From positions 3,047-67,046 of the forward strand of contig PDZX01000016.1 in assembly GCA_002753185.1 (NCBI GenBank): a stretch of DNA of 64,000 nucleotides, written 5' to 3'. The stretch comes from Magnetococcales bacterium WMHbin3. Lineage in GTDB: Bacteria > Pseudomonadota > Magnetococcia > Magnetococcales > Magnetaquicoccaceae. Shown piece after piece: positions 45,603 to 56,704 of this stretch (position 1 is the first letter of the stretch; the number at the start of each line of letters is the position of its first letter). A program made the position numbers and the translations under genes. The notes beneath the pieces were generated by a model. That model was not told the origin of the DNA, made no database searches, and saw only the letters and a list, made by a program, of their open reading frames with translations.

Positions 45603-48600
45603 TCAATCCGGATCGGCGCCCCGCCGCCGCTTGCCGCTCTCTCCCAACAGACGTTCCAGCTCCCGCCAGATCGCCGCCATGTCAACGGGTTTGGTCAGAT
45701 AACCATCCGCCCCGGCCCCAAGACACGCCTCCCGTTCTTCGGGCAGGGATGCGGCCGACAGGATCAGAATAGGCAAGGAATGAAACCGTTCGCTGGCACG
45801 GATGGCCCGCATGGTGTGATCGCCATCCATTTCGGGCATGCGCAGGTCCAACAGGATGACATCCACCCGCGGATTGGCCTCCAACAACTGCAGCGCCCGC
45901 ACGCCATTGGCGGCGATCCGGACGTGAGCAACCCGTTTTTGCAACTCATTCGCCAAAGAAAACGCGAAACGCATGTCATCATCCACCACCAATATATGAA
46001 CGGGATGACCATCGACAAGCAAAGCCTCCATGGCGCTCTCCCGCTGCACGATCAGGGGATTGACCATGGCCGGTCGATGCATGGCGCGAGAAGGCGGCCG
46101 ATCCGTCCCGACGGCGTCCAGGGTCAGGTGCAGGAACTCCGGCGGCGCGGACGCGGAGTGGCTCTCGCCGGGGAGTTCCGGCAACACCAGGGTAAAACGG
46201 CTCCCCTGCCCCTCCAGGCTCTCCAGATGGATCTCGCCCCCCAGCAGACGCGCCAGCTTGCGGGCAATGGCAAGCCCTAAGCCACTGCCGCCGTATTTGC
46301 GACTGGTGGAACCATCCCCCTGCCGGAAGGTCTCGAAAATCACCTCCCATTGCCAGGTGGGGATGCCGATGCCGGTATCGGCAATGCAAAAGGCCAACTG
46401 GTTGGCGCCCGACGCTGGCCCGGCGAACGCCGCGACCGGACGACCGACATGCAGCGTCACCCCGCATGGCTCGGTGAATTTCAAGGCATTGGCCAGCAGA
46501 TTCTGCAGAATGTGCTTCAGTTTGGCGCCATCCGTATGGAAAACCCGCGGGATGCCGGAGTCGACCAAAAACTCCAGCATGACCCACTTTTCCGAGGCGA
46601 CCGGCAGAAACCGTGCGTGCAAGGTCTCCAGCAGGCGGTCCAGCCATACCTCCTCTGGCGTCACCTCCACATATCCGGCCTCGACCTTGGACAGATCCAG
46701 CAGGTCCTGAATCAGATCGAGCAACTCGGTACCGCTGGCATGGATGATCCGCGCCGAGTCGCTCTGCTCCGGGGTGAGATTCGCGGCCCTGGCCAGTTGC
46801 CCGGCCAGGATCAACATGCTGTTGAGCGGGGTGCGCAGCTCGTGGGAGATGTTGGCCAGGAATTCGGACTTGGCGCGATTGGCGGTTTCCGCCGCCTGCC
46901 GCGCCTCCACCATCACCGTCTCGAACTCCTTGCTCAGGGTGATATCCCGCAAGGTGCCCGCGACCCCTTGCGGAGCGCCGTCTTCTCCGATCAGTGGAAT
47001 CGCGTAGACCTCGATCCACAGCGGGCGTCCGCTGACATGCAGCCCCTTGAAGGTATCCCGCACCGCATCCAGGCCGCCATGCAGGAGATGATGAAACCGA
47101 TCCCGCGCCCGCGCATGGCCTTCGGGATGCAAATCGTGAATGAAATGCCTGCCCAGCGACTCCTGGACCGAATGACCGGTGATCTCTTCCCAGGCCGGAT
47201 TGAGAAAACGCCATCGGCCTTGCACGTCGGTTCGGAAGATCACGTCCTTGACGTTGTCCACCATGAGCCGATAGCTCTCCTCCCGACTGCTCAGTTCCCT
47301 GGCGATCCGCCGCGCCTGCTCCTGGATGCGCTCCTTCTGGCCGGAGAGGGAGAGGACAATGAAGAACAGCAGGCCGTTGACCAGCACCCCCAACACCGCG
47401 ACCACCAGGGGTTGATGGCTCTCCATCGACCGTTCGAGGGAGGGTTTGTCGAAAAAACGTACCAGCCAGGTGCGTCCGGGCAGATCCAGATGGGTGTCCC
47501 GCGTGTGGAGCGCACGGACAGGCCGGCTCGTTTTTTCCATCCCGGAATGCCAGGAGGCGTACAAGACCCGATCCGATTGCGGCTCGGAACCGTCATGAAT
47601 GATGAAATCCATGTCATGAATCCCGTAACCCAGAATCCCCTGCATCAGATCCCCCCTGCGGAACGGACTGTAAACGAAGCCGAGCAACGCCTGCCGACGC
47701 TCCTCGACGGTCGATGCGGGCCGATTGGCGCGGTAGACCGGCAGGTACATCAGGACCCCGGTCTGGACATCCCGATCGGTCTCCTGTTCCAGGATCACCC
47801 GGCCGGAAAGCGCGGGCATGCCGCTGTCCCTGGCAAGCTCCATGGCGCCGCGACGCACCTCCTCGAACCACATGTCGTACCCGAAGGCGCGCAGATTGCG
47901 TCCGGCAAAGGGTTCCAGAAAGAGGGTCGGGCTGTACAGGGGGCGCTCCCCGGCCGGCTTGACGGCGAAATCCGCGAAGCCTTCCGCGCGCATCCGCTCC
48001 TCCAGGGCGCTCCTCTCTTCCGCTGGCGCCATCAGGGCGAAGCCGATGCCTTGAATGCCCGGCCAATGGGTGTCGATTTGCAAGGTCTTGACGTAGTGAT
48101 GCCAGCCGGCGCGCGTGACCTCCTGGGAGGCGTTGAACAGCCCCACCCCGCCCCGCAGCACCTGCTCGTATTCCCGCATGCGCTTGAGGATGGCCAGGCG
48201 GGCCTCTTCCACCTCGAAGAAGAAAGTGTCCCGTTTGCGTTCCTCCATGGTCAGGTTGGCATAATGCCAGGCGAGAAACGTCAGGAGCATCGAGGCCAGC
48301 ACGATCAACCAACCGGTCACCTTGTTGTGCAGACAATCCTGGAAAATCCGCCACAAGCGCCCGCGTCGCCAGACCAGCCAGTACGCAGCCACGGCCAGCG
48401 CAAGAAACGCCAGGAACCTCGCCGCGACAGCGGGCTGCCGCACCGCTCGCGTCTCCGTCCCGTACCAGTGGTTGCGGATTTGCCGGTAATGGGGCGAATG
48501 CACGAGCTTGCCCAGCGCGGCATCGATGTCCGGGAGAAGATCGGCCAGATCCTTGCGCAGTATCATGGCCCGTTTCAACTCCAGAAAGGGTGCGCCAACC

Positions 48601-49295
48601 GGCTTGATCTTCCCTTCCAGCTTGAGTTCCCTTGCCTTGCGCAACACCACCTCGTGGGGAGCGATCAGGATCTCCACCATCCGGTTGACGAGCTGAAACA
48701 GCGCGCTCTCCACCGTCAGGGTGGGGACCAGGTCGATCCCGGTCATCCGTTCCAACTGCTGCAAGGCCGCGCCCTGCCGGATGGCCGCCACCCGTTCGCC
48801 CGAAAACCAGACACAATCCTGCGGCCTGGGGTCGTCGCGACGCACGAAACAGGAGACGCGAATCGTTTCCATGAGTTCCGAAACCAGGAACTCCTCCCGC
48901 CACTTGGGCGTGACCCCCATGCCGGGAACAAGGTCGCCACGGTTTTCCCGCAACGCGCGCGCCGCCTCCTCCCAGTTTTCCACGGTGAGAAATTGCAGTT
49001 CCAGCCTGGCCCCCGCCGCCACCTCTTTCAGGATTTCCACGGCCAACCCGGAGGGATTGCCGTGGAGATCGGCCTTGAACAAGGGAGGGAAGTCACGCAG
49101 CACCACCGCCCTGATCCGACGCGGCGCATGATTGCCGGCCTCCAGCGGGGAGGCGAGGAGCCACGCCAGACAGAACACGAGCGGCACAACAAGCAAACCT
49201 CTCCAACGCCGCATGGTCACGTGCGTCATCCGCATGGTGCGGACCAGCCCGATGGATCGTGATAATTTATTCCACGATAGTAACCATTCAGCCAT
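45603..49295 (-). CDS. Hybrid histidine kinase with periplasmic SBP3 and CHASE sensors
   Basis: About 1230 residues. A signal/membrane segment near 30-50 is followed by a periplasmic amino-acid-binding-protein-like (SBP_bac_3) domain (about 60-270), a membrane helix, a CHASE domain (about 345-600, 'QGIGFALMAPAEER', 'LFLEPFAGRNLRAFGYDM'), another helix and a PAS. HisKA carries His818 ('SHELRTPLNSMLI'), with an ATPase ('GGSGLGLAIARKL') and a C-terminal REC ('VILLDLRMPEMDGD'). ATG 49295 is called because GGAGG lies six bases upstream; an ATG at 49301 abuts it. Divergent from the second kinase gene, sharing an operator-like region. Confidence 0.92.
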   Translation of the reverse strand: MAEWLLSWNKLSRSIGLVRTMRMTHVTMRRWRGLLVVPLVFCLAWLLASPLEAGNHAPRRIRAVVLRDFPPLFKADLHGNPSGLAVEILKEVAAGARLELQFLTVENWEEAARALRENRGDLVPGMGVTPKWREEFLVSELMETIRVSCFVRRDDPRPQDCVWFSGERVAAIRQGAALQQLERMTGIDLVPTLTVESALFQLVNRMVEILIAPHEVVLRKARELKLEGKIKPVGAPFLELKRAMILRKDLADLLPDIDAALGKLVHSPHYRQIRNHWYGTETRAVRQPAVAARFLAFLALAVAAYWLVWRRGRLWRIFQDCLHNKVTGWLIVLASMLLTFLAWHYANLTMEERKRDTFFFEVEEARLAILKRMREYEQVLRGGVGLFNASQEVTRAGWHHYVKTLQIDTHWPGIQGIGFALMAPAEERSALEERMRAEGFADFAVKPAGERPLYSPTLFLEPFAGRNLRAFGYDMWFEEVRRGAMELARDSGMPALSGRVILEQETDRDVQTGVLMYLPVYRANRPASTVEERRQALLGFVYSPFRRGDLMQGILGYGIHDMDFIIHDGSEPQSDRVLYASWHSGMEKTSRPVRALHTRDTHLDLPGRTWLVRFFDKPSLERSMESHQPLVVAVLGVLVNGLLFFIVLSLSGQKERIQEQARRIARELSSREESYRLMVDNVKDVIFRTDVQGRWRFLNPAWEEITGHSVQESLGRHFIHDLHPEGHARARDRFHHLLHGGLDAVRDTFKGLHVSGRPLWIEVYAIPLIGEDGAPQGVAGTLRDITLSKEFETVMVEARQAAETANRAKSEFLANISHELRTPLNSMLILAGQLARAANLTPEQSDSARIIHASGTELLDLIQDLLDLSKVEAGYVEVTPEEVWLDRLLETLHARFLPVASEKWVMLEFLVDSGIPRVFHTDGAKLKHILQNLLANALKFTEPCGVTLHVGRPVAAFAGPASGANQLAFCIADTGIGIPTWQWEVIFETFRQGDGSTSRKYGGSGLGLAIARKLARLLGGEIHLESLEGQGSRFTLVLPELPGESHSASAPPEFLHLTLDAVGTDRPPSRAMHRPAMVNPLIVQRESAMEALLVDGHPVHILVVDDDMRFAFSLANELQKRVAHVRIAANGVRALQLLEANPRVDVILLDLRMPEMDGDHTMRAIRASERFHSLPILILSAASLPEEREACLGAGADGYLTKPVDMAAIWRELERLLGESGKRRRGADPD

Positions 49296-49324
49296 TGACA
49301 TCCTCCACTCGGAGAGGTTATCAT
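49295..49324 (+). promoter_or_regulatory. Promoter of the REC-PAS-PAS hybrid kinase gene
   Basis: Perfect TTGACA (49295-49300) and TATCAT (49319-49324), 18-base spacer. The -35 box overlaps the start codon of the divergent kinase gene. AATTGCA repeats lie just downstream, at the expected transcript start. Confidence 0.65.
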
Positions 49325-49333
49325 ATTTTCAAA

Positions 49334-49349
49334 AATTGCATGAATTGCA
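49334..49349. promoter_or_regulatory. Candidate operator: two AATTGCA repeats between divergent kinase promoters
   Basis: AATTGCA at 49334-49340 and again at 49343-49349, in direct repeat with a 9-base period. They sit between the -10 boxes of two divergent promoters and would overlap both transcript starts. The 11-mer CAAAAATTGCA here recurs in the inverted repeat at 52928-52964. Confidence 0.5.
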
Positions 49350-49378
49350 AAATAGATCCATTCCACCCCCACTGTCAA
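49349..49378 (-). promoter_or_regulatory. Promoter of the SBP3-CHASE hybrid kinase gene
   Basis: On the minus strand, perfect TTGACA (49373-49378), an 18-base spacer and TATTTT (49349-49354), followed directly by the AATTGCA repeats. Confidence 0.65.
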
Positions 49379-49383
49379 GAGCG

Positions 49384-52149
49384 ATGAACGAACATTTGCG
49401 GCCCCTGATCCTGATCGTGGATGACAAACAGGCCAATCTGAAGGCCCTGCGCATCCTGTTGCGCTCGGTGGAAGCCGATATCGTCGAGGCACACACCGGC
49501 AACGAAGCCCTGGGACTGATGCTGGAACAGGATTTCGCCCTGGTGTTGCTGGACGTGGACATGCCCGACATGAACGGCTTCGAGGTGGCGCAGATGGCCT
49601 ATCAGTTGGAGACGACGCGCAATTTGCCGATTCTGTTTCTGACTGCGGCCTACAAGGATGATTTTCATCGTCTGCAGGGCTATCGCGCCGGGGCGGTGGA
49701 TTACATCGAAAAGCCCATCGATGAGGTGATACTCCTCTCCAAGGTTGCGATATTCCTGAAACTGTACAATGCGCGCGTCGAATCCGAACGGCTGCGTCAT
49801 GAATTGCAGATCAACGAGGAACGCTGCAAGTATGCCCTGGAGGGGAGCAACGACGGATTGTGGGATTGGTCCATTCCTTCCGGCAGGGTCTTTTTCAGCA
49901 ACCGCTGGTACGAAATGCTCGGTTACCATCCGGACGAACTGGAACCACACATCCAAACCTGGGAAAGGCTGATCCATCCGGAGGATCGCGACATGGTCCA
50001 GTCATCGATGGACGCGCTGCTGGTCGGCCATGCCACCCAGCATCATACCGAGCACCGGTTGCGCATGCGTAACGGCGCATGGCTGTGGATCCTCGACCGT
50101 GGCAAGGTGGTTGCCCACGGTCGCGACGGCAGACCCTTGCGCGCGGTCGGCACGCACCAGGACATCTCGGAGCGCAAGCGGATGGAAGACGAGATCCGCG
50201 CAAGCCATGCACGCTATGAACAACTGACCGCGCGCATCCCGGTCGGGGTATACAAAGTCCGGCTGGACGTCAGGGGAACATTCGCTTTCGACTACGTCAG
50301 CGATCCTTTCTGTTCGTTGCTGGGCATGGATCGTGCCGCCATCATGCATGATTTCACCAAAATCTTTGCCACCACCCACCCGGAGGAACGCCAACGATTC
50401 ATCGACTACAATCAACAGTGCGCCAACGCCAGGGAGCCGATCTTCTGGATCGGACGCTTTCTGGTGCATGGCAGGACGCACTGGCTGCAAATCCAGTCGA
50501 AACCCCAGGTGGAACAAAACGGGGATACACTTTGGGATGGGGTGGTGATCGACATCACGGAGAGGAAACTCCTGGAAAATGCCCTGCGCGCCTCCAGGCA
50601 GGAAGCGGAACAGGCCAATCAGGCCAAGAGCCGCTTCCTGGCCACCATGAGTCACGACATCCGCACCCCCATGAACACCATTCTCGGCGTGGGCCAGATC
50701 CTCACCCGCTCCGTTGGGCTGACCGCCAAGGAACAGCAACTCCTGCGGGTCGCCAATCGCGCCGGAGATGCGCTCATGGCGCTGATCGACGACATCCTGG
50801 ACCTCTCCAAGATCGAGGCGGGTCAATTGAGCCTGGAGCAGATCCCCTTTCCCTTGCGCCACGAAATCCACACCGCCCTGGAGATCATCCGCGCCAACGC
50901 CCAGGCCAAGGGGATCCGCATGGCGGCGGAACTGGATCCCGGACTGCCGGATCATGTGGTCGGCGATCCCCGGCGGCTGCGGCAGATTCTGTTGAACCTG
51001 TTGGGCAACGCGATCAAATTCACCCACCAGGGGGAGGTCGTCCTTGGCGCCACGCTGGGGACGGACGCAACCCTCCATTTTTCCGTGCGGGATACGGGCA
51101 TCGGGATCCCGGCCAACCGTCTCGAGGCGATCTTCGAGCCTTTCAAGCAGGCCGAGGATTCGACCACGCGGCGCTTTGGGGGCAGCGGTCTGGGTCTGAA
51201 CATCTGCCAACAACTGGTGTCACACATGGGCGGGGAGATCCGGGTGGAAAGCCGGGAGGGGGTCGGCAGCACTTTTTGTTTCTCCCTGCGGCTCCCCAGG
51301 GCCGACCCGCCGATACGGGAACGCGTGGACAGCGACACGCTCCAGGACGCCGCAACCCTCATGGATGCACCGATCCCCAACCCACGCATCCTGCTGGTGG
51401 ACGATACCGAGGACAACCGGCTGGTGGTTCAGGCTTTCCTGGAACTCTCCCCTTGCCGGTTGCAGGAGGCATCCAGTGGCGAGGAAGCCCTGCGGCTGTT
51501 CGAGCACGCGGAATTCGATCTGGTGCTGATGGATGTGATGATGCCCGACATGGATGGTCTGGAAACCACGCGCCGGTTGCGGACCAGGGAAGCGGCGCTC
51601 CATCGGCGCCGCATCCCGGTGATCGCCCTGACCGGCAATGCCATGCAATCGGATCGGGAGCAAACCAAGGCGGCCGGATGCGATTTTCACCTCGCCAAGC
51701 CGTTGCGGCGCGACGAACTGCTCGATGTGTTGGACCGTTTTCTCGGCATGGGCGGATCCGTCCCCATCCCTCTACCCACGTCGAACCCTCCGGAAGATGT
51801 GATGATCGACCAGGAGAGGCTCGCGCAACTGCGCAGGGATACCGGCGCCAATTTCTCCCGGCTGCTGGAGATGTTTCTGGCCAATCTCCCCGGACGTCTG
51901 CAGGGGATGCGAACCGCGTGGGAGCGGCAGGAGCCGGATGCCCTGCAACAGCTCGCCCACCGGCTCAAGGGCATGGCGGCGACCATGGGGTTGGTACGGT
52001 TGACCAATGCCTGCATCCGCCTGGAGCGGGAGAGCACGCAAGGGGTGGAACCGGACAGCCTGCTGGCCAGCGTGCGCCAGTTGGAGGAGGTGGCGGGGCA
52101 ACTGCCGGAGCTGCTGACCCCCTGGTTGGATCCGGCCCACGAACCTTGA
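49384..52149 (+). CDS. Cytoplasmic hybrid kinase (REC-PAS-PAS-HisKA-HATPase-REC-HPt)
   Basis: About 921 residues, no membrane segment. The N-terminal receiver ('LVLLDVDMPDMNGF') is followed by two PAS domains (about 140-270 and 275-395). The kinase core has His424 ('MSHDIRTPMNTIL') and an ATPase ('GGSGLGLNICQQL'). A second receiver ('LVLMDVMMPDMDGL') and a C-terminal HPt ('LAHRLKGMAATMG') follow. The start is ATG 49384; the upstream ORF extension would overlap the divergent promoter. With its own input receiver it can be driven by another kinase, plausibly the divergent membrane kinase. Confidence 0.92.
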   Translation: MNEHLRPLILIVDDKQANLKALRILLRSVEADIVEAHTGNEALGLMLEQDFALVLLDVDMPDMNGFEVAQMAYQLETTRNLPILFLTAAYKDDFHRLQGYRAGAVDYIEKPIDEVILLSKVAIFLKLYNARVESERLRHELQINEERCKYALEGSNDGLWDWSIPSGRVFFSNRWYEMLGYHPDELEPHIQTWERLIHPEDRDMVQSSMDALLVGHATQHHTEHRLRMRNGAWLWILDRGKVVAHGRDGRPLRAVGTHQDISERKRMEDEIRASHARYEQLTARIPVGVYKVRLDVRGTFAFDYVSDPFCSLLGMDRAAIMHDFTKIFATTHPEERQRFIDYNQQCANAREPIFWIGRFLVHGRTHWLQIQSKPQVEQNGDTLWDGVVIDITERKLLENALRASRQEAEQANQAKSRFLATMSHDIRTPMNTILGVGQILTRSVGLTAKEQQLLRVANRAGDALMALIDDILDLSKIEAGQLSLEQIPFPLRHEIHTALEIIRANAQAKGIRMAAELDPGLPDHVVGDPRRLRQILLNLLGNAIKFTHQGEVVLGATLGTDATLHFSVRDTGIGIPANRLEAIFEPFKQAEDSTTRRFGGSGLGLNICQQLVSHMGGEIRVESREGVGSTFCFSLRLPRADPPIRERVDSDTLQDAATLMDAPIPNPRILLVDDTEDNRLVVQAFLELSPCRLQEASSGEEALRLFEHAEFDLVLMDVMMPDMDGLETTRRLRTREAALHRRRIPVIALTGNAMQSDREQTKAAGCDFHLAKPLRRDELLDVLDRFLGMGGSVPIPLPTSNPPEDVMIDQERLAQLRRDTGANFSRLLEMFLANLPGRLQGMRTAWERQEPDALQQLAHRLKGMAATMGLVRLTNACIRLERESTQGVEPDSLLASVRQLEEVAGQLPELLTPWLDPAHEP

Positions 52150-52161
52150 CGGGAAGAGCCG

Positions 52162-52791
52162 TTACCCGGTGGTGGCCGGGCCGGTTCGCTGGCGCAGCAG
52201 GTATCGACCGCGACGGTCATCGAGCAGGCGCTCGCGGATGATGGCCTGCAACGCATCGAACGGCACCGGCTTGTACAAGACCCGCACATCGTCCGGCACG
52301 CCCCCCAGCGCGGCCACCCTCGCCGGCTCCAGGGCCGTCATGACCACGATGCGGGGCGCGTTCAGATCCGAGGCGTTGCGGAGCGCCCGGATCATCTGAA
52401 AGCCATCCATGGTGGGCATCATCAGGTCGGTGAGGATGATGTCGGGCTTGTGCAAGCCGGCCAGGATCAGCCCCTCGTAACCGTTTTCCGCCAGGAGCAG
52501 CCGGATCGGCAACTGCCAGTGCTGGATCACGGCGCCGGTCACCTCGCGCAACTCCGCCTCATCCTCGACCAGCAGCAGGGTCAGCACCGGCCCATCGATG
52601 GCCATCAACTCCTCCTGGCGCTTGTTCAGCACTTGATTGATGGTGCTCATGGGGATCCGGCAATGGCCGCCGGCGGTCTTCCAGGCGTTGATGACGCCGC
52701 TCTCCAGCCAGTAGTGAATGGTCCTCTGGGAGACTCCCAGCAGCTTGGCGGCCCTGGAAGTGGTGACGAAATCGTTCGAATTCTCAGGCAT
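52162..52791 (-). CDS. HTH (excisionase/MerR-like)-REC regulator
   Basis: A 209-residue protein. The N-terminal helix-turn-helix (about 8-55: 'TSRAAKLLGVSQRTIHYWLE', 'KTAGGHCRIP') is of the MerR/excisionase type. A linker and a receiver domain (about 70-195) follow, with acidic pocket 'LVEDE' and phospho-acceptor Asp122 ('ILTDLMMPTMDG'). The order, DNA-binding first and receiver last, is the reverse of most response regulators. GGAG precedes ATG 52791; the longer ORF lies in the promoter. Its own promoter carries a GCAAATT inverted repeat at the transcript start, suggesting autoregulation. It is convergent with the hybrid kinase gene (12-base gap). Confidence 0.9.
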   Translation of the reverse strand: MPENSNDFVTTSRAAKLLGVSQRTIHYWLESGVINAWKTAGGHCRIPMSTINQVLNKRQEELMAIDGPVLTLLLVEDEAELREVTGAVIQHWQLPIRLLLAENGYEGLILAGLHKPDIILTDLMMPTMDGFQMIRALRNASDLNAPRIVVMTALEPARVAALGGVPDDVRVLYKPVPFDALQAIIRERLLDDRRGRYLLRQRTGPATTG

Positions 52792-52816
52792 GGCGCGTCT
52801 CCGGCAGACAATCGAT

Positions 52817-52837
52817 AATTTGCAAAACCAGCAAATT
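52817..52837. promoter_or_regulatory. Inverted repeat AATTTGC-N7-GCAAATT at the HTH-REC transcript start
   Basis: Perfect 7-bp arms (52817-52823 and 52831-52837) with a 7-base centre. It begins five bases downstream of the -10 box of the HTH-REC promoter, the position expected for an autorepressor operator. Confidence 0.55.
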
Positions 52838-52842
52838 GAGTA

Positions 52843-52927: not shown

Positions 52928-52964
52928 TGCAAAAATTGCAAAAAAAAATCTTGCAATTTTTGCA
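52928..52964. repeat. Perfect 14-bp inverted repeat upstream of the signalling cassette
   Basis: TGCAAAAATTGCAA (52928-52941) and TTGCAATTTTTGCA (52951-52964) are exact reverse complements with a 9-base A-rich centre. The right arm supplies TTGCAA (52951-52956), which with AATACT (52974-52979, 17-base spacer) forms a possible promoter for the plus-strand cassette. The repeat could therefore block RNA polymerase binding when occupied. It has no T-run after it on either strand that would make it a convincing terminator. Confidence 0.6.
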
Positions 52965-53306: not shown

Positions 53307-54305
53307 GTGCCTCCGGAACCCTTCAGAGAAATGGGAAAACACTATCCCGCAGGCAGCGTGATCTACCAGCAGGGGGAGAGCGCGCAACACTTTTTCGTGG
53401 TGCAGGAAGGTCAGGTGGTTATCACGCGGGAGACCTCCAGTGGGCAATGTCTTCTGGTGGAGCCTGGCCCCGGTGAGGTATTCGGGATTGTCTCCCTGTT
53501 CACCCCCAGTCAGAAACGGTTCACCACGGCGACCGCCAAAACGGAAGCGCGCGTGTTGCGGGTCGATGCGCGTGTTTTCATCTCACGTCTGCATCAGGAT
53601 CCTTCGCTGGCGTTTCGGATCATCCGCCATCTTTCCCAGAGGATTTGCGATCTGGACCACTGCGTGGCGGGCATGGAAAGCCGCAAGCCCGACCAGGCAG
53701 CCCATCGCGACAAAAAACTGCTGAACGTCCATGATTTCAGTGTCGAGCACCATTTTCTGATCGTCGAGGATGAACTCGAATTCTTCATGCTGATGAGCGC
53801 CTGGTTGCATGAGGAAGACGAAACCGACACGGAGGGTTGGCTGCCGACGTGCAAACTGACCCTGGCCACCACCTTCCATGAGGCGGAGCAACTGTTGGGA
53901 CAGGAGAAATACGACCTGATCCTGCTGGATTTGCACCTTTCGGACAGCAACGGCTACGAAGAGACCTTCGTGCGCATCAACGAAATGGCGTTCGACACCC
54001 CTGTTATCGTCTTCACGGCGCTCGACGATGACAAGAAAGCACTTCAGGCGGTACATGAAGGCGCCCAGGATTATCTGATCAAGGGGCAGGTCACTGGCAG
54101 GAGCTTCAAGCATGCCGTTTATCATGCCCTTTCGCGCCATCATTTCATGCGGCAGGCATCACCATCCGAAGCCATCGACACCAGCCAACCGCCTCCGTCG
54201 CGGCATTTTCTCGGCTGGCCGATTGGCACATGGCATCGAAACATGCGCCAGCTGCTCAGCCACGGCGCTTCCCCAACCTTCTTGGACAGACAGGAGAAAT
54301 CGTAA
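53307..54305 (+). CDS. Cyclic-nucleotide-binding-like / receiver protein
   Basis: A 332-residue cytoplasmic protein. Residues ~10-125 form a CRP-type cyclic-nucleotide-binding domain ('YPAGSVIYQQGESAQHFFVV', 'PGEVFGIVSLF'). A receiver domain at ~148-285 follows, with Glu154-Asp155 and phospho-acceptor Asp208 ('LILLDLHLSD'), then a ~45-residue tail without a DNA-binding motif. The start is GTG 53307 with GAGGAG seven bases upstream. The receiver closely matches that of the next protein. The stop shares one base with the next ATG. The canonical cNMP-contact Arg is not obvious, so ligand identity is open. Confidence 0.85.
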   Translation: MPPEPFREMGKHYPAGSVIYQQGESAQHFFVVQEGQVVITRETSSGQCLLVEPGPGEVFGIVSLFTPSQKRFTTATAKTEARVLRVDARVFISRLHQDPSLAFRIIRHLSQRICDLDHCVAGMESRKPDQAAHRDKKLLNVHDFSVEHHFLIVEDELEFFMLMSAWLHEEDETDTEGWLPTCKLTLATTFHEAEQLLGQEKYDLILLDLHLSDSNGYEETFVRINEMAFDTPVIVFTALDDDKKALQAVHEGAQDYLIKGQVTGRSFKHAVYHALSRHHFMRQASPSEAIDTSQPPPSRHFLGWPIGTWHRNMRQLLSHGASPTFLDRQEKS

Positions 54306-55486
54306 TGGAAAACAATATTGGCATCGGCGGACTGGTCCGATCGGGACTCTTCGACGCCTCGCATGGCGCCACGCCAACCGCCACACAGGCGCCGGTGGTG
54401 ACCGTATCCAGAAATTTCGGTTCCAATGGCGGCAGAATCGCCGAACTGCTGGCCGCGCGGCTTCATGTTCCCTGCTATGGCCATACGATGATCGACGACC
54501 TGGCCAACAAGACCCACTCGACCAAATTGATGATGTCGCTCATGGACGAAAAATTGCCACGCGCCATCGACAATTTTTTCTATTCCATCTTCGTCAAGCC
54601 AGAACAAACGACCTCTGGATATTATAAAAATATCATAAAGACGGTTCTGGAAATCGCAAAACGGGGTGGGGTCATCATCGGTCGCGGGGCGCGCCTGATT
54701 CTGGCGGAATATCCCCATGTCTTTCGGGTGCATATCGAGGGCACGCGCGCGTTCTGCATCAAACGGGTGGCGCAAAGAGAGGGCATCACCCCGGAGGAGG
54801 CCAAGGCCAAGATCATCGCGGTGGAGCAGGAGCGGTCGCGGTTTCTCAAGGAGCTTTTCAAGCGCTACAAGAACAGCCGCACCTATTACGATCTGGTCAT
54901 CAACTCCGACCGGCTGGAGCCGGAAGCTGCGGTGGATCTCATCATCGACGCCATGACGAAAATGGGGTATCCCCTCGGCGCGCCGGGGGACGTCACCGCG
55001 CTGGTGCAACCGGTGGCCGCACCTCCCGCGCCGGTCGTCGAACTCCGGACGGGCATGCACTTTTTGATCGTCGAGGACGAAGAGGAGTTTTCCGCGTTGA
55101 TCGATGGCTGGCTGGGCCAGTTCGCCAACACGCCGGAGACGGGCGGCGTGACGCCGATGGTGCATCTTTCCCATGCCACCTCCTTCAAGGAGGCGGAGGC
55201 GTTGCTCAATGCGCAACATTTCGATCTGATCCTGCTGGATTTGAACCTGTCCGACAGTCATGGCTACGAGCAGACATTCGGCCGACTCAAGCGCAAGAAC
55301 CTGGACACGCCCATCATCGTCTTCACCGGCCTGGATGACGATCAGAAGGCCGTTCAGGCGGTCAACGACGGGGCGCAGGATTATCTGGTCAAGGGACAGG
55401 TGAGCAAGAAGGGGTTGTTGCGTTCCATTCGGCAGGCATTGGCCCGTTACAAGATCATGAAGACCTATACCAAGGCGCTGAAATGA
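54305..55486 (+). CDS. Cytidylate-kinase-like / receiver domain fusion
   Basis: A 393-residue protein. Residues ~30-225 match the cytidylate-kinase-like family (PF13189 type): nucleotide-binding loop 'SRNFGSNGGRIAELLA' (35-50), 'GGVIIGRGARLIL', and an Arg-rich lid with 'RTYYDLVINSDRL'. Residues ~251-375 are a receiver domain with Glu257-Asp258 and phospho-acceptor Asp312 ('LILLDLNLSD'). Putting a nucleotide-kinase-like enzyme under a phosphorylatable receiver is unusual. AGGAG precedes the ATG. It follows the cNMP-REC gene with a one-base overlap and shares its receiver type. Confidence 0.88.
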   Translation: MENNIGIGGLVRSGLFDASHGATPTATQAPVVTVSRNFGSNGGRIAELLAARLHVPCYGHTMIDDLANKTHSTKLMMSLMDEKLPRAIDNFFYSIFVKPEQTTSGYYKNIIKTVLEIAKRGGVIIGRGARLILAEYPHVFRVHIEGTRAFCIKRVAQREGITPEEAKAKIIAVEQERSRFLKELFKRYKNSRTYYDLVINSDRLEPEAAVDLIIDAMTKMGYPLGAPGDVTALVQPVAAPPAPVVELRTGMHFLIVEDEEEFSALIDGWLGQFANTPETGGVTPMVHLSHATSFKEAEALLNAQHFDLILLDLNLSDSHGYEQTFGRLKRKNLDTPIIVFTGLDDDQKAVQAVNDGAQDYLVKGQVSKKGLLRSIRQALARYKIMKTYTKALK

Positions 55487-55530: not shown

Positions 55531-56313
55531 ATGGCGCGCATTCTGGTGATCGACGACGATGAATTTTCACGGATGTATCTGGTTGCCATTCTGACCAGGG
55601 CGGGTCATGTCGTGGAGGCCGTTGAAAACGGACCACAAGGTTTGCGGCATTTTGCCGAGGGGGAGATCGATCTGATCATTACCGACATCTTCATGCCCAT
55701 GATGGATGGCTTTGAATTGTTGTCCACCATTCTGGAGCGTTATCCGGACTGCAAGGTGATGGCGATGTCCGGGGGCGCTCCATGCATGCGTGAGCAGTTG
55801 GCCTTGAGGGTGGCCAGGAAATTCGGCGCCTTGGAATGCATCAGCAAGCCGTTCCGATCTCATGATGTCTACGCAAAGATCGACATGGTTCTTGGCCACC
55901 CTCCTGTTGCGCCCGATACGGGTGAGAAAAAAATGAAAACTATAATAGTTGTTGATGATGACGAGACATTTCGGTTTTATCTGGCGGGCATTCTCCGGCA
56001 GGCGGGTCACACGGTACTGGAGGCTGCGGAAGGCGCGGCCTGTCTGGAGATCATCGCCAAGGTGAGGGTGGATCTGATCATCACGGACATCTTCATGCCC
56101 AAGGTGGACGGGATCGATCTGCTGGCGACCTTGATGCGGGATCACTCCCGCGTCAAGGTGATTGCGATTTCCGGGGGCCATGCGGTGATGCGATCGGACA
56201 ATATTCTGGAGATTGCCCGGTCATTCGGGGCCGAGGAGATCATTGCCAAACCGTTTGTGGCGGAAACGGTCTTGAAGCAGGTATCGAGGGTGTTCCAATC
56301 CACTGGCATGTAA
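55531..56313 (+). CDS. Tandem receiver protein (REC-REC)
   Basis: A 260-residue protein made only of two receiver domains. The first has 'VIDDDE' and Asp52 in 'IITDIFMPMMDG'. The second begins near 136 with 'VVDDDE' and has Asp186 in 'IITDIFMPKVDG'. The switch Lys is present in both ('ISKPF', 'IAKPF'). The domains are clearly duplicates of each other and of a different subtype from the receivers in the two preceding proteins. With no output domain it probably acts as phosphate sink or relay between the kinases and the HPt encoded next. Confidence 0.92.
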   Translation: MARILVIDDDEFSRMYLVAILTRAGHVVEAVENGPQGLRHFAEGEIDLIITDIFMPMMDGFELLSTILERYPDCKVMAMSGGAPCMREQLALRVARKFGALECISKPFRSHDVYAKIDMVLGHPPVAPDTGEKKMKTIIVVDDDETFRFYLAGILRQAGHTVLEAAEGAACLEIIAKVRVDLIITDIFMPKVDGIDLLATLMRDHSRVKVIAISGGHAVMRSDNILEIARSFGAEEIIAKPFVAETVLKQVSRVFQSTGM

Positions 56314-56329: not shown

Positions 56330-56704
56330 ATGGAGACATTTGGCGAATACCGGGAGTTGAACAATCCGCAAAAACTCGTCATCATGAAACAGGAACTCGA
56401 AGAGGAGTTTGATCCGATTCTCCGCTACTATCTGTCCGGCATCATCGCGCGCCCCTTGCGAATCCAGAGTGCGCTGGACAACGGCAATGTGGAAGAGGGG
56501 TTGATGGAAAGTCACTCTTTAAAAAATATCTGCCATCAATTAGGCTTGGATGCCATGGGGGAAATCGCCGCCACCGTGGAGCATCTGTGCAAATCGGGAG
56601 CCATCGAACAGGCATTGCCCCCCATCCATCAACTGATCGCTTCCAGCCACATCGCCAATCAGGAGATCACGCATTTTTGCGGGATCGCTCAGGAGGGGGC
56701 TTGA
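56330..56704 (+). CDS. Stand-alone histidine phosphotransfer (HPt) protein
   Basis: A 124-residue all-helical protein with 'ESHSLKNICHQLGLDAMG', the HPt signature with phospho-accepting His62 and Lys65. It probably shuttles phosphoryl groups between the receivers of the hybrid kinases and those of the cassette. It follows the REC-REC gene by 16 bases. The 42 bases to the convergent efflux operon contain only an imperfect hairpin without a T-run. Confidence 0.85.
   Translation: METFGEYRELNNPQKLVIMKQELEEEFDPILRYYLSGIIARPLRIQSALDNGNVEEGLMESHSLKNICHQLGLDAMGEIAATVEHLCKSGAIEQALPPIHQLIASSHIANQEITHFCGIAQEGA

Follow-up and report, generated by a model that had tools for sequence, protein, structure and literature searches.

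The gene at 54305..55486 (+ strand) of the window, by which we mean the whole 64,000-nucleotide stretch of Magnetococcales bacterium WMHbin3 analysed here, encodes a 393-aa protein that joins a Cytidylate_kin2 domain (PF13189; CMK2) to a receiver (REC). We consider this CMK2-REC protein, with a probability of about one half, to be a module gated by phosphorylation whose ligand is a nucleotide or some other phosphate-rich compound and in which phosphate transfer may or may not persist, a reading built on comparative sequence evidence. Two structures have been solved for the widespread PF13189 family, for which the literature searched gave no function. A receiver fusion with an Hpt protein in its own operon and a hybrid kinase nearby offers a handle on the ligand or reaction of PF13189. 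If our reading is right, a module of nucleotide-kinase fold joins the list of two-component outputs, and the state of nucleotides or polyphosphate may be tied to cyclic-di-GMP control in magnetotactic-type bacteria.

The fusion protein and its conservation

The reading frame opens at ATG 54305 with AGGAG 5' of the start, and its TGA ends at 55486; the ATG overlaps the stop of the preceding cNMP-REC gene in a TAATG junction. The N-terminal domain, at aa 31-202 (54395..54910, + strand), matches PF13189 over profile positions 1-175 of 176 with 130.6 bits against a gathering score of 28 (9e-38), and the receiver, at about aa 250-386 (55052..55462, + strand), matches Response_reg (PF00072) with 57.4 bits against 30.2 (1.9e-15). 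Both matches exceed their gathering scores, confirming the fusion of a cytidylate-kinase-like domain to a receiver described in the initial annotation. The same annotation credited the receiver with all of its phosphorylation residues, and in the alignment of orthologues the acidic pair E257/D258, the phospho-acceptor D312, T341 and K363 are indeed present in 15 of 15. In the PDB the sole close relatives of the N-terminal domain are 3fdi and 3hdt, which are labelled "uncharacterized protein" and "putative kinase".

The Magnetococcia family to which the window belongs is represented by 18 genomes, of which 14 encode CMK2-REC, with 15 proteins in all: 9 of 11 genomes in the window's genus and 5 of 7 in its sister genus; two of the four family genomes that lack the protein are incomplete (57% and 77%). 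The possibility that homologues lack the fusion, raised at the outset, is therefore not borne out within the family, and PF13189 proteins outside it are mostly without a receiver. PF13189 itself was found in 43 of 48 Magnetococcia genomes, whereas among the other Pseudomonadota sampled only 2 genomes of 251 had it. The CMK2 domains of the 15 fusions form one clade (SH-aLRT 99) inside a 24-row clade shared with stand-alone CMK2 proteins. No CMK2-REC fusion was found in a search of plasmids, and a viral scan gave a single distant PF13189 match.

Both domains are under purifying selection. Compared with an orthologue of 90% identity, dN/dS is 0.115 for CMK2 and 0.118 for REC versus 0.45 for the linker, so selection maintains both domains. 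That the fusion is an accident of assembly or annotation, or a decaying gene, can be practically discounted: we found nothing in support of it, and recurrence in 14 genomes, an overall dN/dS of 0.17 and the low values for each domain exclude chance.

Remodelled loop and invariant arginines

In regard to its pocket, CMK2-REC carries a remodelled P-loop, S35-R-N-F-G-S-N-G-G-R44, and a second motif, G126-R-G-A129. The initial annotation had noted a P-loop-like segment; the loop is present, whereas the Walker A pattern GxxxxGK[ST] is not matched by RNFGSNGGR. When the first strand, loop and helix are aligned without gaps to the cytidylate kinase (Cmk) of the same genome, R-N-F-G-S-N-G-G-R falls opposite G-P-A-G-A-G-K-G-A, which places a Gly at the Walker Lys and leaves the next positions without Ser or Thr. 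The Lys position is Gly in all 15 fusions, among which the Ser/Thr position that follows is variable, and a non-Walker loop is common to other active-type PF13189 members of the class. The suggestion that the domain phosphorylates nucleotides is weakened by the absence of the Walker A Lys and Ser/Thr.

Invariant in all 15 fusions are R36 (at the first Walker Gly position), G39, G42, E82, G126-R127, R141, R154, R158 and R177, and a residue census finds the same set kept in almost every one of 30 further members of active type in the class; R36 and R127 are present in every one of the 15 and the 30. Two divergent CMK2 subtypes have Gly in place of R36 in all aligned members and have mostly lost R127, and this joint loss suggests that the two arginines act together. 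One subtype is the second gene of tandem CMK2 pairs. To the other, of GPFGSGMEE type, belong this genome's second CMK2 gene (L003) and the CMK2 with which a hybrid kinase (L056) begins at its N-terminus. Tandem CMK2 pairs were seen at nine loci; one gene of a pair has the SR and GRGA residues and its partner has Gly for R36 and has mostly lost R127, which suggests pairs of an active and a pseudo form. We draw the pocket and the domain interface from sequence because the AlphaFold2 model, run on the window protein and one relative, reached a pLDDT of only 44 and was discarded.

The true Cmk of this genome is a separate gene matching PF02224 at 202.7 bits. CMK2-REC gave Pfam matches to PF13189 and PF00072 and none to PF02224, and we rejected it as the housekeeping cytidylate kinase because the genome already has one. 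Thus, "cytidylate kinase-like" names an ancestry, not a demonstrated activity. Cmk is nevertheless a distant relative whose P-loop and GR regions align with those of CMK2-REC; the profile comparison gave a sensible alignment with weak statistics and served for residue mapping only. The two differ in that CMK2-REC lacks the Walker A Lys and has GRG where Cmk has GRD. The Asp of GRD contacts CMP in Escherichia coli Cmk. With the PF13189 family, whose structures 3fdi and 3hdt have no function given, CMK2-REC shares a full-length domain match and the SRxxGSxG-type and GRxA motifs; the PF13189 members found are mostly stand-alone, whereas CMK2-REC is fused to a receiver and lies in a phosphorelay operon.

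Phosphorelay genes, domain combinations and competing readings

Genes in the window follow the order hybrid kinase, divergent HTH_17-REC, cNMP-REC, CMK2-REC, REC-REC and Hpt, with domains assigned by Pfam. The hybrid histidine kinase (REC-PAS-PAS-HisKA-HATPase-REC-Hpt; 49384..52149, + strand) is a candidate phosphodonor and is also kept beside the fusion at one other locus (L004). Between it and the operon lies a regulator with an HTH_17/MerR-like domain and a receiver (52162..52839, - strand; start uncertain), and beside other CMK2-REC loci a receiver gene occupies the same place. The cNMP-binding receiver protein (53307..54305, + strand; GTG start inferred) precedes the fusion. Downstream are a tandem receiver protein, REC-REC (55531..56313, + strand), in which Pfam found no output domain, and an Hpt phosphotransfer protein (SHSLKNICHQLG; 56330..56704, + strand), whose orthologues adjoin CMK2-REC at 11 further loci. 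A REC-GGDEF gene comes after the fusion in both loci scanned for the next receiver gene. With 150 or more receiver matches in this genome, single gene adjacencies are weak evidence; repeated gene sets are stronger. The window also holds, at 45603-49301, a 1232-aa hybrid kinase with family 3 solute-binding, CHASE, PAS, HisKA, HATPase and REC domains, divergent from the second hybrid kinase.

CMK2-REC would be a response regulator whose output has the fold of a nucleoside-monophosphate kinase. Phosphorylation of D312 would be set by a phosphorelay in which the nearby hybrid kinase, Hpt protein and tandem receivers take part, and the phosphorylated receiver would alter the ligand or partner of the N-terminal domain, with the ligand probably held by the remodelled loop (R36 and GSNGG) together with R127, R141, R154, R158 and R177. 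Phosphorylation, ligand, direction of signal and output are what we infer from these features. Control by phosphorylation, as initially proposed, remains the most likely logic given the conservation, the Hpt and tandem receiver genes of the same operon and the stand-alone CMK2 genes in two-component operons; the observation that points to phosphate transfer from the kinase or Hpt protein is the proximity of their genes.

Stand-alone sisters of the fusion domain are followed at three loci by REC-HD-GYP and hybrid kinase genes, and another (L114) occurs with REC-GGDEF and HTH_17-REC; these gene types also surround the fusion, and at L114 the CMK2 and REC parts are unjoined. Four other stand-alone CMK2 loci have no receiver nearby. 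Within the class we found CMK2-cNMP-REC (L053, L054), CMK2-cNMP (L055) and cNMP-CMK2 (L052), as well as a hybrid histidine kinase, CMK2-HisKA-HATPase-REC (L056:3315-5213, genome G025), whose N-terminal part, on the input side, is a divergent CMK2. The CMK2-REC receivers fall into one clade (SH-aLRT 96) with two others, that of the window's cNMP-REC protein (55% identical) and that of the L054 protein (37%), in a tree that left out the L053 receiver, a partial match. The two overlapping genes of the window thus carry three domain types that are held in one chain elsewhere. The L053 and L054 proteins differ from them in being one polypeptide, in having a CMK2 of another clade and in adjoining a degenerate CMK2 partner gene, although the L054 receiver belongs to the same subfamily.

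Outside the class, Acidobacteriota have CMK2-BON and, at L080:2129-3358, a protein in which a receiver follows a degenerate CMK2; this fusion is separate from CMK2-REC. Other long PF13189 frames in Acidobacteriota mostly have no second Pfam domain and were set aside as probable over-extension of frames in GC-rich DNA. A MATE-family transporter with a C-terminal PF13189 (L131:1454-3511) comes from the phylum of the Izemoplasmatales locus. We also observed a polyphosphate kinase 2 (PPK2) gene next to or just upstream of stand-alone PF13189 genes at eight loci, an adjacency that spans several families of Magnetococcia.

Free recombination of this kind is typical of regulatory ligand-binding domains. 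It favours a nucleotide-sensing role for CMK2, and it is mainly because CMK2 combines so freely with REC, cNMP, histidine kinase, BON and MATE domains that we rank a binding switch above catalysis. The PPK2-adjacent stand-alone genes count against this ranking in that an enzyme acting in the metabolism of nucleotides or polyphosphate would account for them just as well. CMK2 may instead be an active kinase of nucleoside monophosphates or another small molecule, with its rate switched by the receiver, and we regard this as a possible but less probable explanation. The hits of the PF13189 profile in the class also include, at 30-35 bits, probable true Cmks, ten of which were confirmed as relatives of Cmk; the (d)CMP kinase model TIGR02173 has a sub-threshold match (1.5e-9) to aa 108-217; and the invariant arginines and the placement of stand-alone paralogues after PPK2 genes would suit an enzyme. 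Catalysis is harder to reconcile with a Gly at the Walker A Lys and an unconserved Ser/Thr position in all 15 fusions, with a domain that does not reach PF02224, and with Gly in place of the Asp of GRD.

The signal could also run in the opposite direction, such that a nucleotide-sensing CMK2 tunes the phosphorylation or lifetime of a receiver whose role is to drain phosphate or to take part in the relay. A divergent CMK2 does sit on the input side of the G025 hybrid kinase, and an extra relay receiver is plausible beside the Hpt protein and the several receivers that the operon encodes anyway. Yet R36 and R127, which the fusion keeps, are missing from the subtype linked to the kinase, and where a single receiver is attached to a ligand domain, it more often controls that domain; we therefore find this direction unlikely. 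A phosphorylation-gated binding module remains the reading that we prefer. Its extension to PF13189 at large is more doubtful: the family might serve signalling in general, its kinase fold having been repurposed for sensing a ligand of nucleotide or polyphosphate type through a new Arg-based P-loop. In Magnetococcia phosphorelays it would then act at the output end (CMK2-REC), at the input end (CMK2-histidine kinase) and in pairs of active and degenerate forms, and would tie cyclic-di-GMP signalling to the energy or nucleotide state.

Receivers fused to metabolic enzymes form a recognized group whose members are restricted to particular lineages (PMC5847659). CMK2-REC likewise combines a receiver with a domain of enzyme fold in a narrow lineage; unlike those regulators, it attaches a PF13189 domain with a non-Walker loop, and its receiver is C-terminal. 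The joining of a receiver to an enzyme is thus a known principle, of which PF13189 as the attached domain would appear to be a new form. Within the reach of our literature search, beyond which the main response-regulator censuses lay, there was no cytidylate-kinase-like output and no mention of CMK2 with a receiver or two-component system, nor was a measured ligand, phosphotransfer or output found for any PF13189 protein.

A repeated motif upstream of the operons

The motif TGCAAAAATTGCAA, which occurs as 9-bp direct or inverted repeats of GCAAAAATT, forms an inverted pair at 52928..52964 between the HTH_17-REC gene and the operon of cNMP-REC and CMK2-REC, and we propose this pair as a candidate operator, possibly that of the HTH_17-REC regulator. 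With up to two mismatches, the window has four matches versus 0.26 expected. Such sites precede HTH_17-REC and CMK2-REC operons at three further loci, and one also lies before the hybrid kinase gene (49328-49350). Another is found about 100 bp before the genome's second, degenerate CMK2 gene (G000:C83:16821; L003, L141). With up to one mismatch, there are 9 sites in 4.6 Mb versus 0 for the reversed control.
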